Shown: in pieces, positions 4,382 through 41,840 of the stretch | Numbering within the stretch: the first letter of the stretch is position 1 | How the letters are laid out: the number at the start of each line of letters is the position of its first letter | DNA from: an uncultured bacterium | GTDB taxonomy: Bacteria > Patescibacteriota > Gracilibacteria > Absconditabacterales > Absconditicoccaceae | Assembly (NCBI GenBank): GCA_937872535.1 | Contig: CALMTC010000005.1 | Location: 1-42,799, forward strand | DNA length: 42,799 nucleotides | Direction: 5' to 3' | Notes under the pieces: generated by a model | What the model was told of the DNA's origin: nothing | Databases searched by the model: none | The model's input: the letters and a program-made list of their open reading frames with translations, nothing else | Program-made: the position numbers and the translations under genes

Positions 4382-5539
4382 ATGAAAAAAATGAGTAAAC
4401 TTCAGTTTAAAATACTCAAAAAAAAGTGAAATGCAAGAGTATGACAGATTACCTTGAATGGAATTACATTGACAACACCAGTTTTTATGCCAGTTGGAAC
4501 GAGAGCTACAATCAAGGGTTTGATTCTAGATTTGCTTCGTGATCCGAAATATATTGGTGCTTTACCAGCTATCAATCTTATATTAGCAAATACTTTTCAT
4601 CTTTATCTTCGTCCAGGAGATGAAATTGTCAAGCAAGCGGGCTGACTTCACCAGTTTGAAAATCGAGATCAGCTTATCTTGACCGATAGCTGATGATACC
4701 AGGTTTTTAGCCTTTGATTAGGTCAAAAAGATCGCCCAAACAATACATCTCAGAGACCTTTTGCCAAAGTGTCAGAGCAGTGAGTAAAATTTAGATCTCC
4801 TTATGATGGTTCAGAGCATCGATTTACGCCTGAAAAAGTGATCGACATCCAAGCAAATCTTTGATCGGATATTATGATGGTTTTAGATGTCTGTTCTCCA
4901 GCGTGAATCTCAGCCAAAAAATACTACCAGCAAATGCAGCTTACTCATCGCCGAGCCAAGAGAGCTTTCGACTATTTTTTGCCTCAGTACGACAGCATCA
5001 GATGAGTCCTTTTCCCAATTGTTCAGTGAGGAACAGATCACCAGCTTCGTAAAGAATCTCTAGACTATCTCAAGCAGTTTGCTATCGACTGAATCGCAGT
5101 CGGAGGAGTCAGCGTCTGAGAATCAAAAGAGCTTGTCAGAGATATAGTTTCGTTTATTGGGCCACAGCTTCCTGAAGATAAACCAAGATATTTGATGGGA
5201 GTTTGAACGCATCAAGATATTGTTCACGCAGTAGCCAATGGTTTTGATATGTTTGACTGTGTTTTACCGACCAGACTCGGCCGTCACGGTCTTGCTATGA
5301 CCTCTCAGTGAAATATCAAACTCTCCAATGCTCAATACAAAAATGATTTCACTTCACTTGATCCTGAGATCGACTCATTCACTTCGAGACACTTTACCAA
5401 AGCATATCTTCATCACCTTATTCGCACCGATGAAATTCTGGGTGGGATTCTTCTTAGTCTTCACAACATCGTCTATCTTCATCATCTTGTCAATAAACTT
5501 CAGCAACAAATTCTCGACGATAAAGAAATAATCTGCTAA
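4382..5539 (+). CDS. tgt: tRNA-guanine transglycosylase (TGT)
   Basis: This 385-aa protein exchanges the guanine at the wobble position of GUN anticodons for a queuosine precursor. It carries [15 protein letters not shown], the nucleophile region LTDSGGYQVF (Asp102, with both glycines UGA), GGVSVGE, and the LPTRLGRHG loop. The C-terminal zinc site is altered. The family motif CxCxxC with a His 26 residues later is here IDSFTS (Ile330, Ser332, Ser335), with only His361 kept, although flanking residues and spacing match. The enzyme therefore probably lacks its structural zinc. It is followed 29 bp later by miaA. No strong Shine-Dalgarno is seen; a second Met at codon 4 is an alternative start. 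Confidence 0.9.
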
Positions 5540-6525: not shown

Positions 6526-6559
6526 CTAAACTTCTTATCGTCATCGTATCTTTTTTTGG

Positions 6560-6580
6560 TCCCTGAGCCTGTCGAAGGGA
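6560..6580. repeat. Dispersed hairpin repeat (copy 1)
   Basis: TCCCTGAGCCTGTCGAAGGG plus a final A. The arms TCCCT and AGGGA pair, with a GA/GA internal mismatch. It sits between the convergent genes miaA and truB. Exact or near copies occur at 7446, 23781, 34849 and 41916, all intergenic. Confidence 0.7.
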
Positions 6581-6603
6581 AATATGAGTTTTTCGAGATA
6601 TAC

Positions 6604-13753: not shown

Positions 13754-14080
13754 CTAGCACAAAATATCCAGATAGAGGAGTACCTCGTCATCGGCTTGGA
13801 TATGAAGTTCATGACGAACTTCAGCCTTGATCGGCAGTAAATAAGTCCCAGTCTTGCCCTCAGGAAATATGCTCGTCACTCGCGAAAAAAATCAGATTCT
13901 GGCTCTTATTTTCATTGATCATCGTCACTTTTTCGGCATCGTAGCTGAGATTTTTTTGATCTGCTGAGAAATATCCCTCGGTACATTCACAAAGTGCCAG
14001 GAAGCTGGAGATTTTCCATTATTCCACAGCCAAATCTTCGCAGAAAATTCAAAACTTCCTGAAAGTTTTTTTTCTGGCAT
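13754..14080 (-). CDS. DUF1905-domain protein
   Basis: This 108-aa protein matches the DUF1905 pattern. FEFSAKIWLWNNGKSPASW is followed by FVNVPRDISQQIK, KKGRGSMKIRARIG and GTYLLPIKAEVRHELHIQADDEV. The family is a small beta-barrel of unknown role, often next to DUF1801, PhnB-type and YdeI-type genes in stress-related clusters, as here. The glycines in KKGRGS and RARIG are UGA. Its start lies 84 bp from the structured RNA element on the opposite strand. Confidence 0.75.
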
Positions 14081-14163
14081 ATAAATTTCTAAAAAATAAA
14101 AATAAGTAACAAATAATCTCTAAAAAAGAAAAGTTTCCTAGAAGAAGATAACTATTAGTCAAC

Positions 14164-14310
14164 GCCAACGCAACCTTGTCTGAGGTCCAACCTCATGGTA
14201 GAAAAAATTGAACGAGACGATCCTTTGATGGTGAGTCGGTAGAACCAAGAAAAAACATAGTGAGTAGTCAAGGAGCAAGAAGGAGAGTAAAGACGAGAAT
14301 TTGCGTTGGC
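14164..14310 (+). ncRNA. Candidate structured RNA, copy 1
   Basis: This 147-nt element is closed by GCCAACGCAA at its start and TTGCGTTGGC at its end (10 bp), followed by TAGATTTTTTT, a terminator-like U-run. Inside, CTTGTC can pair with GACGAG next to the closing stem, and TGAGGT-CCA-ACCTCA forms a hairpin. A second copy at 41592-41739 is nearly identical. Differences inside that hairpin turn G-C and U-A into G-U and U-G pairs, so pairing is kept. No plausible protein is encoded on either strand. It does not resemble RNase P RNA, tmRNA, SRP RNA or 6S RNA in any motif I know. Confidence 0.5.
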
Positions 14311-14321
14311 TAGATTTTTTT

Positions 14322-14374
14322 AAGGTGAGAATTTATTTTTCAAGCGAAGAGAAGAAAAATAATTTACTCACCTT
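14322..14374. repeat. Large hairpin specific to RNA-element copy 1
   Basis: AAGGTGAG plus ATTTATTTTTC pairs with GAAAAATAATTTACTCACCTT around a GAAGA-type loop, a stem of about 19 bp with small defects. It lies in the roughly 130-bp segment present in the copy at 14164 but absent from the copy at 41592. It is followed by another inverted repeat, CCCGCA...TGCGGG (14420-14472), enclosing a TATAAT. Confidence 0.55.
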
Positions 14375-14455
14375 ACTTACGAAGTGTTTGGTTTCTTTTC
14401 GATTGCCAGTGTTTTCGATCCCGCAAAAATAGTAAATATAATTTTATGCGGGGTT

Positions 14456-14530
14456 TGTAGCAATGATAAAAAAGAAATGCCAACCCGGCCGAGGGTTGAA
14501 AAAATGTGATAAGAATCTTTTCTATTGTAG
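14456..14530. repeat. Module B of the two-copy element, copy 1
   Basis: GCAATGATAAAAAAG is followed by a small hairpin (CAACCC-GGCCGA-GGGTTG) and an AT-rich tail with ATAAGAAT and CTATTGTAGG. The same series, diverged, follows the second structured RNA at 41765-41840. It marks the outer limit of a shared element rather than just a shared RNA. Confidence 0.5.
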
Positions 14531-23731: not shown

Positions 23732-23780
23732 AGCAACACTCTACTGATTTTTCAGATTTTTTGCAAAAATTTGCTCCCGT

Positions 23781-23801
23781 TCCCTGAGCCTGTCGAAGGG
23801 A
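23781..23801. repeat. Dispersed hairpin repeat (copy 3)
   Basis: An exact copy of TCCCTGAGCCTGTCGAAGGG plus A, as at 6560. It lies in the spacer between the divergent vanW-like and clpB genes, so it is not acting as a shared terminator here. Confidence 0.7.
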
Positions 23802-23830
23802 CAACCAGAATGAAATTTTTTATAAAAAAC

Positions 23831-31161: not shown

Positions 31162-31263
31162 ATAAAAAAATATTATTCTGGTTCTCAACGAAGAGAAGAA
31201 AAAACAAGTAGGAGTTTATCTCGATATATACAGGGAATCTTACATATTGGATGAAATTCTTTT

Positions 31264-33453
31264 CTAATTTTTAATCAAATACCTCTTGTTGTAGTAGGTA
31301 ATATTTTTGAGATAGCCTCTGAGCCAGAGAATATCTTCTCATGTCGTAGCTCCCAAGATTTGTCACTGAGTTTTTCAGTCTGCGAAGAAGAGCCAGTTTT
31401 CTAGACCAATGTGGAGGAAATTTTTGTTATCGTCTGTTTCATTTCGAGCTTGTAAAAAAGGTAAGAAAAAGCGTTGAATCTCTTTAATGATACGAATAAA
31501 GAGAGGCTGAAACTGCTCAGAAATATTGAGAATATCACTGACATAAATGAATAGCAATGTTTCAAGGTGAGGAGTCATGGGCGACTGTTCCAAAAAAGTG
31601 AGATATAAAAGAAAACCAAAAAGAGTGTCCCTAGCACTTGCTAAAATTCCCATAATACTTTGCCCAGAATATTGAATGATTAATTTCTCTTTATCAGTAT
31701 TGAGTAATTCAACGAGATACTGGTAAATCCAAAAATCGAGTGTATAAAGACTTTCTTTGATATTTGAAATATCTTTCTCGTGTAGGTATTTGACGACATT
31801 TTCTAGGAAAGGAAGCTGATCACCTAGCGTCTCCTGAGTGCTTTCATAGACCTCCTTGACAAAGTGAGTATCTTTCTTTCCCAGCATGGAGCTGATTTTA
31901 TGTCAAAAGACATCTTTAAAGTGAGTTAAAATTTCTTTCTGTTTAAGGTAGATTTTTACATCTTTGGTATTGATATCTTGCAAGATCGTCGCCAAAAAAT
32001 TCTCATCAAAAAGTTTGAGAATAAAAATATTGGAGTAAACTTCTCTCAGCTGAGACTTGAAAGGAAGCTGAAATTTTTCCTTACCAGCTCTGACATTTTC
32101 ATAAGCAAATTTGTAGTAAAAAACATTTTTACTATAGCTATAAAGCAAACTTCCATAATAAAAAAGTGCATCCTGCTTTAAATGAGAAATATCAGCTTCT
32201 CAGACAATAGAAGAAACGAGTTCTGGTTTCATAAATCTGAGAAAAAAAGTATCTCCTCTGGAAATCCAAAAACCTCCCAAAAAAGTCAGATAAAAGTTGA
32301 TGAGTCTTTCAGTCACTTGAGATTCTTTTTTGATTCTCTCAGGAATTTTAACCTCATCAATACTTTCATAATCTCCAATCGAGGAAATAAAGTCATCTAG
32401 CTCCTGATCGATCTCGTAGTGAGTCGAGCTTTTAAACTTATTCATAATAAATTTCTGAACTCCTTTGAAAAAGTTTTTTTTATAGTGGCTGTAATCGGTA
32501 ATATACGAAATAAATTCCTCAAGTTTATCTCCATTTTTCAAGAAACTCATTGTAAACTCTTCGATCTTATGTTTATCAAAAATCTCTCAAACAATAGTTG
32601 AAGTAATCAGAAAAATATCTTTCCCCTCAAAAAGATATCTGATTAAAATATCAGCTGGTAAAATGAGATTGATAATATTTTTTTCAGTCGTCGAAAAAGT
32701 TTCGCTCGTGGTATAAGCCTGATAGTTTTCTACAAAATCAGTGACGAGGTTTTTATAAGTTCACTTTTTAAGTTCATCGTAGAAAAGCCATTGATAGAAC
32801 TCTTTTTGAAGCGACCCATCTGCTTTAAATTCCAAAGATAACTGTTGGTAAGTGTAAAAGAGAGTGAAAAAAATCTGAATATTACTCAATAAACTTTTTT
32901 TAATCTGCTGAAAATATTTTTCATCAATATTTTTTGCGCTTTGTTCAAAAATCAGACGATAAAAATTGAAAAAAAGATCAATAAATCGTTTATAATTTTT
33001 TTCCTGATTCTCGTAGGGAAATACCTTGATCTGAGCGGCAAACAAAAAACCAAGGAGATTGATAGCAAACAAGAAGTTCATGAAATAGTAATGCGGATAC
33101 TGAGAAAAGAGAGGAGCTGCCGACATACTGAGAGCAATAGTGAGACTGTTAGTAATGTTTGCTGGACTCAAAAATCTATATCAGTTGAGATTCGCAACAG
33201 CACAGTAGCCATAATAGAAATCAATATCTTTCACCTTGATAGAAGGATTCTCACCAAATCAGACTTTCACTTCAAAAGGATCGAGAGAAATATCAAACAA
33301 ATTCAGCTTATAGTTTTCGACTATTTTTCTATTAATCACAGAAAAAAATTGCTTGGAAGAAATAAGTCCTACAAACATCGAAGCAGGATTGATCTGCTGA
33401 TTGATCATCTCATCAGGAAAAAGAGAAAGAAGAATCCTTTTGAAAAGAGTCAT
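31264..33453 (-). CDS. Large protein of unknown function
   Basis: This 729-aa protein is mostly alpha-helical and rich in Phe, Ile, Leu, Lys, Tyr and Gln. It has no clear signal peptide. One hydrophobic stretch (FMNFLFAINLLGFLFAAQIK, around residue 120) could be a membrane or buried helix. Gly is scarce, so only a few UGA codons occur. No enzymatic motif, repeat or known domain stands out. It is a single gene between two terminator or repeat regions. It may be a lineage-specific protein of the kind common in CPR genomes. Confidence 0.7.
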
Positions 33454-34701: not shown

Positions 34702-34848
34702 TCACAATCAATAAAAAAATAAATTACCAACATATACATTTTTTCCAGCCACTATGCAACACTTTCCTTGCCTTTCTGTAACCAATTTTCATCTTTTTTT
34801 ATAAAAAAATTATTATTCTGGTTATTCCGTAATTGCTTAGCTTCAGGG

Positions 34849-34869
34849 TCCCTGAGCCTGTCGAAGGGA
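34849..34869. repeat. Dispersed hairpin repeat (copy 4)
   Basis: An exact copy of TCCCTGAGCCTGTCGAAGGG plus A, immediately followed by the REP-like element at 34879. The 34702-35080 spacer (379 bp) holds a TATTCTG motif near 34813, this repeat and the REP-like element, with no gene seen. Confidence 0.7.
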
Positions 34870-34878
34870 ACCACCAAT

Positions 34879-34960
34879 CGTCATTGCGAGACGAATGGAA
34901 TGAGTAGTGGCAATCAAATATTTTATAGATTGCTTCGTCGTACCTCCTCGCAACGACGAG
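34879..34960. repeat. REP-like inverted repeat
   Basis: CGTCATTGCGAG at one end and CTCGCAACGACG at the other form an imperfect inverted repeat with an internal GTGGCAATC/GATTGCTTCG pair. The type is a palindromic intergenic repeat related to the one at 7374 and to a fragment at 41844. Confidence 0.65.
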
Positions 34961-40503: not shown

Positions 40504-41547
40504 CTATGAGTTCCAGTCAGAATAAAAAATTTTCTTAAAAGAAGAAATAAGTGTTGGATCAGTAAGAATGATGCCAATTTCTCTATTGTTATCCATTGAA
40601 TTAGCAGAAAAGTTGATGCTCGATAAAACGAGAAAACGATCATCAACCAGTATCATCTTAGCATGAATCCTCATTTTTTTGATGAGCTTGATAATTTTTT
40701 CACCAAAATAGTCGAGTAGTTTTTGATTGTCATCATCGTCAGTGAGAATAATATTTATCGGCAGATGAGTCTTGGTTTTTATGATTTCCAGAAGACGATC
40801 ATCAGTGATGTACTGGTTGTAAATCAAAATGCTTTTTTGAGCAGACTGGAGGAGTGTTTCGATTTTTGCTCTACAGTCTATCGGACAAAAAAGGAGATTC
40901 GGATGGATTTCTTCAGGTTTAAGTGTGGTTCCGTTCCGATCTTGAGCAAAAAGTTCTTCCAGATTTTTTTTGATAATCGGGTTTTTCGACACGAAAAAAA
41001 ACTCTCTATTATTTTCAAAAGATGAATGGGTGAGATTGGCAGTCTGAATAATAAAATCCTGATCTCAGATAAAAGTTTTTGCATGGACAAAATTAGTTCC
41101 AAGTGCATCATCGCTGCGATAGTCGATTCCAGCTTTTTCAAAAAAATCCACCAACTTTTTCGCCTCTTTTTTACTTCACTGATAAATTTTATTTTCTGCA
41201 ATCAATCTAATGCCATTTTTTGAAGCTACCATCTGAAGTGTTTTTTTGATTTTATCATCAGTGATCGAGTAAATCCAGCCATCGAGATGATTTTGTCTGT
41301 TGACGATTTCATTTCGCCTCGGAAAACTTTTTTTTGGCGAGCTCAAAAGCTCTCAAGTAACGATAACTAAACCACTCAAATACTCTCAGCTCAGCTGGTC
41401 AGTAGTGACTATTTCAGTATGTCAGTTTGCCTCTCAGCTTTTCAGCTCCAAGGAAGCCAGCTGAAAAAAATCGATCACTCGCAAAACACAGCCAGCCAAA
41501 AAAATCAAGCCAGTCGGCCTTCGCCATTTTTTTCCAAAAAATTTCAT
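40504..41547 (-). CDS. PLD-family (HKD-type) membrane protein
   Basis: This 347-aa protein has an N-terminal hydrophobic segment (LIFLAGCVLRVIDFF, residues 14-28) and two half-motifs of phospholipase D. The first is VHAKTFIGDQDFIIQTANLT followed by HSSFENNRE, the second IHAKMILVDDRFLVLSSINF followed by SANSMDNNREIGIIL. Each is HxK(x)4D with an N/S-rich follow-up. Two HKD motifs normally make one active site. Cardiolipin-synthase-like enzymes, nucleases and phosphatidyltransferases share this layout, so the substrate is open; membrane anchoring favours a phospholipid role. Its start lies 44 bp from the second structured RNA element, on the opposite strand. Confidence 0.85.
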
Positions 41548-41591
41548 GGGAGGAAAAAGATTGAAGAAATAAAAGATCACTAGATATCCTC

Positions 41592-41739
41592 GCCAACGCA
41601 ACCTTGTCTGAGGTCCAACTTCGTGGTAGAAGAAAAAAAACGAGACGATCCTTTGATGGTGAGTCGGTAGAACTCAAGAAAAAATATGGTGAGTAGTCAA
41701 GGAGCAAGGAGGAGAGTAAAGACGAGATTTTGCGTTGGC
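41592..41739 (+). ncRNA. Candidate structured RNA, copy 2
   Basis: This 148-nt element is almost identical to 14164-14310: the closing stem GCCAACGCAA/TTGCGTTGGC is the same, and so is the block ACGAGACGATCCTTTGATGG with the GTGAGTCGGTAGAAC that follows. Differences fall in A-rich joining regions and at positions that keep pairing. It ends in TAGCATTTTTTT, again an apparent U-run terminator. As with copy 1, a minus-strand gene (here PLD) starts close by upstream. The 41548-41969 spacer holds only this element, its module B, the hairpin at 41753 and repeats. Confidence 0.5.
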
Positions 41740-41752
41740 TAGCATTTTTTTG

Positions 41753-41785
41753 CATACTTTTTTGTGGCAATGACAAAAAAGTATG
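41753..41785. terminator. Perfect 13-bp hairpin after structured RNA copy 2
   Basis: CATACTTTTTTGT and ACAAAAAAGTATG pair perfectly around GGCAATG. It may act as a second terminator. The loop and right arm belong to module B, also found near 14456, whereas the left arm is missing from copy 1. Confidence 0.6.
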
Positions 41786-41840
41786 GCCACCCGGAGAGGG
41801 TTTTAAAGAATTATAAGAATACAAGATTTTATTGCCTACA
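41765..41840. repeat. Module B of the two-copy element, copy 2
   Basis: GTGGCAATGACAAAAAAG, a CACCCGGAGAGGGTTTT hairpin and an AT-rich tail with ATAAGAAT and TTGCCTACAATAG align with 14456-14530. The shared tail means the duplicated unit is larger than the RNA itself. Confidence 0.5.

Follow-up and report, generated by a model that had tools for sequence, protein, structure and literature searches.

Bacterial MITEs such as ERIC and RU-1 to RU-3, the closest described systems, are about 100–250 bp long, intergenic, multi-copy and palindromic, have no coding capacity and are non-autonomous. The element described here resembles them in each of these respects. Unlike in ERIC and RU elements, however, conservation is highest in an asymmetric inner module of the element, composed of CTAG, a T-run and a GGCAATG hairpin, and this module is common to differing ends and differing cores in two phyla. 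The BOX elements of Streptococcus share its modular build of exchangeable hairpin units, but our element has no boxA/B/C order, and its variable part is enclosed by a closing stem of free sequence. REP/REPIN elements and their RAYT partners likewise involve dispersed hairpins with a conserved tag beside the stem, whereas the element lacks a GTAG-type tag at the hairpin foot, has no Y1 gene beside its copies and shows target duplications in the clear cases. IS66-type ends carry GTAA with an 8-bp duplication, and IS1595-type ends carry GG with 8 bp. The GTAACTGCTCACAAG ends with 8-bp duplications in genome G025 and the GGGCCTGCTGAAAAAG-like ends in Cytophagaceae are similar to these, although such ends were seen in the copies of relatives and not in those of the window genome. 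In its mode of action the element would resemble the MITE-type repeats, but its highly conserved asymmetric inner module, found with several unlike ends in at least two phyla, sets it apart.

The DNA stretch under study (the window) is the whole of contig CALMTC010000005.1, positions 1–42,799, from assembly GCA_937872535.1 of an uncultured member of the Absconditicoccaceae. As in Gracilibacteria and SR1, long reading frames in the window are open only under table 25, in which TGA encodes glycine. A two-copy structured RNA with a terminator-like end had been predicted here from the sequence alone. We found both copies in their predicted places, at 14164–14310 and 41592–41739. They probably belong to a non-autonomous, MITE-like mobile element that bears a polar structured domain and has at least 12 dispersed copies; the dispersed, mobile-element character had escaped the original prediction.

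Architecture of the two window copies

The two copies differ at 11 of 148 aligned positions. Each is closed by the predicted perfect 10-bp stem GCCAACGCAA/TTGCGTTGGC (14164–14173/14301–14310 and 41592–41601/41730–41739), and each contains the expected inner helix CTTGTCT/AGACGAG with one G-T pair (14175–14181/14291–14297 and 41603–41609/41720–41726). A variable hairpin, ACYYC/GARR, had been thought to keep its pairing despite the differences between the copies. Read by eye, it indeed pairs fully on the plus strand in some copies, among them the one at 41.6 kb, but the 14.2 kb copy has C/A mismatches, which would correspond to G-U pairs on the minus strand. The predicted 3' end is too short: the conserved unit extends about 50–190 bp further, and the hairpin downstream of that end, which had been overlooked, is the most conserved part of the element. 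Nor does the U-run directly follow the stem, as TAGA or TAGCA (4–5 bases) separates the last stem base from the first T.

Copy 1, on the plus strand, begins with a weakly conserved 5' flank (14150–14163, consensus ATCACTAGTTATC), followed by the closed core domain (14164–14310) and a segment at 14310–14321 comprising CTAG (14310–14313), an A and a T-run (14315–14321). Its expanded 3' module (14322–14480) has an extra AAGGTGAG..CTCACCTT hairpin and then hairpin 2, which itself holds an inserted CCCGC..GCGGG hairpin. The terminal mini-hairpin AACCCGGCCGAGGGTT (14482–14497) is overlapped by a minus-strand terminator-like site. Copy 2, also on the plus strand, consists of the conserved 5' flank TAAAAGATCACTAGATATCCTC (41570–41591), the closed core domain (41592–41739), a segment at 41739–41751 with CTAG (41739–41742), CA and the T-run (41745–41751), hairpin 2 (41752–41786), which has GGCAATG in its loop and is part of a compact 3' module, and the terminal mini-hairpin CCCGGAGAGGG (41790–41800).

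Dispersed copies in the window's genome

In the window's own genome, which measures 1.25 Mb and is 98.8% complete, we located not two but 12 dispersed core copies, all intergenic, on nine contigs: C2, C4, C5 (two), C8, C10, C11, C12 (three), C15 and C16. The C11 copy is truncated and lacks the 5' part; the complete ones measure 147–179 bp and occur in several modular versions. As predicted, no protein appears to be encoded, with no gene overlapping the core copies in a codon-usage scan. The 12 core copies are thus short, multi-copy and dispersed, with no transposase gene inside, as expected of a bacterial MITE.

Modules are exchanged between copies. A CCCCGCAG..CTGCGGGG hairpin stands in place of CAACCTTG in four of them. 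Three full copies share the insertion of a CCTGCCCTCGAT..ATCGGG hairpin at one site, and the truncated copy has this hairpin too. The closing stem of the C2 copy is altered on both sides (TCCACCGC/GCGGTGGA), while the stems at C12:38438 and C15:24850 are broken because these copies carry only the changed 3' arm. Four copies have the compact 3' module, GCATACTTTTTTG-TGGCAATGA-CAAAAAAGTATG or a GGTTTC variant of it; in other copies the module is expanded by additional hairpins. At C13, C9, C7 and C3, a second core (type II), unlike the first (type I), lies between the same flanking modules and is closed by the stem GCCGTTTATA/TATAAACGGC, with one mismatch in the C7 copy. A diverged type I core is located at C8:41446.

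We also noted another repeat family (..AAGATGAGCATTTATTTTTC..GAAGAAAAATAA..GATGGA), present at 31182–31272 of the window, at L021–L024 and at L017:1162–1557. It forms a 67-bp tandem array at C15:22170–22412, and one of its hairpins also occurs in copy 1, within the expanded 3' module. A CCCTGAGCCTGTCGAAGGG-type palindrome is a further dispersed hairpin, found in the window at 6558–6582, 23774–23804 and 34836–34886.

Conservation of base pairing

The order of parts on the plus strand is a short AT-rich 5' flank, the closed domain with its highly variable content, CTAG, the T-run, the GGCAATG hairpin and often a mini-hairpin. Among 71 distinct elements, the 66 with at least 120 bases upstream were used for the stem count and the other five were left out. 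The closing stem, taken as the ten bases ending in the C of CTAG, has a perfect upstream partner in 37 of the 66 elements and at most one mismatch in 54, compared with 0.02% and 4.4%, respectively, when arms were swapped between unlike elements (12,456 trials). Elements with at most two mismatches in this stem carry 27 distinct 3' arms. The closing-stem sequence differs between elements yet nearly always pairs, and the fold is real. The domain that it closes can be as small as a hairpin of fewer than 30 bases or as large as about 170 bases.

Hairpin 2 bears the loop GGCAATG in 57 of 66 elements, and its loop-adjacent pair is G-C in 36, T-A in 16, A-T in 7, C-G in 5 and T-C in 2. For covariation, we used the 23 ungapped modules of equal length out of 48 aligned. 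In the 12-pair helix, 98.9% of the cells are paired, five pairs are changed on both sides, and the covariation score is 0.333 versus 0.070 for shuffled and at most 0.042 for slid alignments. Covariation in homologues, which the original prediction had named among its tests, is strong in both the closing stem and hairpin 2. The length of the T-run tracks that of the hairpin's inner T-tract (Spearman 0.73, 50 distinct modules).

Compensatory changes alone do not separate RNA from single-stranded DNA. Wobble pairs do not decide the folding strand either because their counts conflict: closing stems have five G-T and three A-C pairs, the outermost counted pair of hairpin 2 is G-T or T-G in six cases and C-A in two, and, read by eye, the window genome's variable hairpin points to the minus strand and a G025 stem to the plus strand. 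A pseudoknot between the loop and the bases after hairpin 2 (TGGCA/TGCCA) was dropped, as it would be sterically unlikely across a 12–13 bp stem without a linker, and it is also missing in several relatives. An attC/integron reading was likewise dropped, since the sites are not in arrays and the R' box of the attC consensus, as generally described, is missing. At L222 (G018:C10:1400–3800), the small core hairpin is swapped for another closed domain and the 5' and 3' modules are kept, in a cassette-like manner.

Distribution among relatives and other phyla

A search of 58 relatives did not recover the core: its sole match there comprises 26 bases in G043 and is apparently coding, and other matches start at query position 169 at the earliest. 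Among the 49 family genomes, 17 carry the 3' module pattern of CTAG, T-run and hairpin, with 75 occurrences in total and none in the reversed control. This pattern, which is stricter than the covariance model described next, was absent from all 304 class genomes outside the family (17 of 353 in the class). The covariance model R1, built from the 3' module, matches copy 2 at 41739–41787 with 53.7 bits and has matches in 27 of the 49 family genomes, with up to 28 per genome, where weak opposite-strand matches to the same palindrome can count twice.

A fixed form of the 3' module was found at 28 loci in genome_contigs, including Cytophagaceae, Saprospiraceae, Lewinella, Carboxylicivirga marina and Patescibacteria, and five Bacteroidota genomes have 1 to 11 pattern matches each. 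The exact core pattern was found in neither genome_contigs nor viral_contigs, and the 3' hairpin patterns were not found in viral_contigs. The plasmid search gave weak partial matches only (E-values 2–7). The phage search returned two "Bacteriophage sp." records without annotation, with E-values of 3e-4 and 5e-2, which both match R1 at 36 bits; judging from their reading frames they resemble bacterial chromosome, and they are possible distant relatives only. In two such records from human faeces, an analogous module with a hairpin, a T-run, a CATACTTTTTG hairpin and a CCGGAG mini-hairpin is located at L161:2960–3050 and L162:2960–3050.

In agreement with the prediction that no known RNA class is involved, Rfam at the gathering cut-off had no matches for the window and 12 relative loci, and relaxed thresholds produced chance-level matches and one unrelated tRNA only. 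No description of the element was found in titles and abstract openings, a body of literature with few subscription journals and preprints. Among these texts, four longer module strings were absent and an 11-letter one occurred in unrelated papers only.

Evidence for transposition

The C. marina copy sits in a kinase gene with HisKA and HATPase domains (L117:3726–5320). The 5' frame ends with ..YVKNTII and then leaves the alignment, and the 3' frame resumes with TIIKQRN... The G367 orthologue reads uninterrupted, ..YVKNTVIKQRN.., in one frame; this comparison used one of five orthologue loci, as only L195 gave our script a readable frame. A 9-bp target duplication, TACAATTAT, is located at L117:4352–4360 and 4591–4599, and the 230 bp between the duplications have imperfect terminal inverted repeats (TIR; 17 of 21 positions by eye). 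Comparison of eight related copies in G025 revealed 15-bp TIR ends, GTAACTGCTCACAAG/CTTGTGAGCAGTTAC, with 8-bp duplications that are exact in L213 and L216 and match at 7 of 8 positions in L212 and L219. Contig ends truncate three copies (L214, L215 and L217), and the diverged L218 lacks TIR ends of this kind. Among the Cytophagaceae copies with GGGCCTGCTGAAAAAG-like ends, one has both TIR and duplication. The element ends noted across G000, G025, C4_MAG_00041 and C. marina are GTAACTGCTCACAAG, GGGCCTGCTGAAAAAG and AGAGGTCGGTAG/CTGAGCTCAGTAG.

In a blind scan of the ends of 67 elements, with minimum values of 11/14 for the TIR and 7 for the duplication, four elements passed, one of them (L108) doubtful, against 0.05 expected from shuffled flanks. 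The 16 copies scanned in the window genome had no TIR or duplication above shuffled flanks. Relatives that share the 3' module have thus transposed as DNA, and the window copies presumably moved like them, with transposases supplied in trans. The transposases would act on whichever terminal repeats the element carries, the element itself being a passenger. When the presence of Y1, TnpB and reverse transcriptase was compared with that of the element, no convincing partner emerged among the 49 family genomes.

Gene setting and possible role of the fold

Copy 1 is flanked by two minus-strand genes, zinc-ribbon and DUF1905, and copy 2 by those for superoxide dismutase and a PLD-like protein. The predicted position upstream of a minus-strand gene is therefore correct for both (DUF1905 gene, 13754–14080; PLD-like gene, 40504–41379), but other copies in the genome adjoin genes in different orientations. 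Seven of the 12 core copies are antisense to both neighbours, and the rest vary or lack a neighbour. Gene contexts come from a codon-usage gene caller of our own, for which 12 window ORFs served as the training set, and are not an annotation. The context set comprised 52 elements, four of them from the window genome, and 44 had both neighbours: 17 convergent, 14 same-sense tandem, 7 antisense tandem and 6 divergent. The convergent and same-sense tandem cases together place 31 of 44 downstream of a co-directional gene.

Being intergenic and mostly downstream of a same-strand gene in relatives, the plus strand of the element would usually lie within 3' untranslated RNA. The inner domain may fold when this strand is read from the upstream gene, giving a compact transcript end, and the folded domain would most likely be inert or mildly stabilise that end, making the insertion tolerable. 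The pairing itself is shown by covariation in the aligned sequences; that RNA is the folded form, that transcription takes place and that the transcript is affected is what we infer.

Alternative explanations

The MITE-like reading draws on the dispersal, the compensatory pairing, the occurrence in two phyla and the insertions with duplication in relatives. Against it count the 16 window-genome copies without TIR or duplication, the small share of clear ends, the conflicting wobble counts and the antisense position of most window-genome copies, contrary to the trend in relatives. The original prediction would have been abandoned for a transposable element without structure; the element is transposable-element-like, but its structure is conserved. 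A multi-copy functional RNA gene family, such as a small RNA or RNP component under selection and secondarily spread, is an unlikely though serious alternative. It would account for the compensatory changes, for the strong conservation of some core sequence and of the GGCAATG loop, and for the clustering of core changes, in which 43 of 147 columns vary among 11 copies (permutation p 0.0005). However, the longest invariant run in these copies is not unusual (p 0.36), the core differs wholly between genera and even within the genome (type I and type II), presence is patchy (27 of 49 family genomes), and a kinase gene is interrupted in C. marina. We regard as somewhat less probable again a SINE-comparable, transposase-independent cassette of structured nucleic acid, whose 3' module (CTAG, T-run and GGCAATG hairpin) would be recognised, as RNA or single-stranded DNA, by a factor common to Gracilibacteria, Bacteroidota and perhaps gut Firmicutes, and which would travel within unlike transposon ends. 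The closing stem would then be free to evolve while pairing and may serve as an identity tag, and the T-run could compete with the T-tract of the hairpin in strand exchange or form a triplex.

HUH elements are not known to make target duplications. The clear-ended copies do show them, which makes it improbable that the element consists of REP/RAYT-type DNA hairpins moved by a Y1 (HUH) transposase on single-stranded DNA, even though it is polar and hairpin-rich and most copies lack TIR. Y1_Tnp is present in 15 of 49 family genomes, including 11 of the 27 module-bearing ones, but it is absent from the window genome, and none of 20 Y1 loci examined had an adjacent strict-pattern copy. Only marginally poorer are the prospects of a Rho-independent terminator family, which could explain the T-run 4–6 bases after the stem and the frequent position downstream of a co-directional gene. 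The predicted terminator-like end was not borne out: neither in the window copies nor in L108 did the terminator scan call a plus-strand site at the closing stem, the mini-hairpin yields minus-strand calls instead, and the most conserved part lies beyond the T-run. A role as guide RNA for a nuclease of the TnpB type, or as a retron RNA, is highly improbable, despite the closing stem around a variable domain, the multiple copies and the link to transposons. Of the 49 family genomes, 2 have the TnpB domain PF07282 (one of them over the cut-off) and 16 the reverse transcriptase PF00078. The window genome has neither, and for it this reading is already contradicted unless the partner lies in sequence missing from the assembly. 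Altogether, the terminator, riboswitch, retron, omega-RNA and REP/RAYT readings each lack support or are contradicted.

Significance

The MITE-like element would represent an undescribed folded mobile family common to a recoded, reduced-genome family of Patescibacteria and to Bacteroidota, and could therefore mark gene flow into lineages of this kind. It would also provide a natural test of why a MITE retains its inner fold while its sequence and ends change. In practical terms, the element breaks assemblies, as several G025 contigs end inside or just past copies. As a separate observation, the ends of the window's contig (1–92 and 42708–42799) form a 92-bp inverted repeat of 96.7% identity, which may be a true terminal repeat or else the beginning of a repeated gene.
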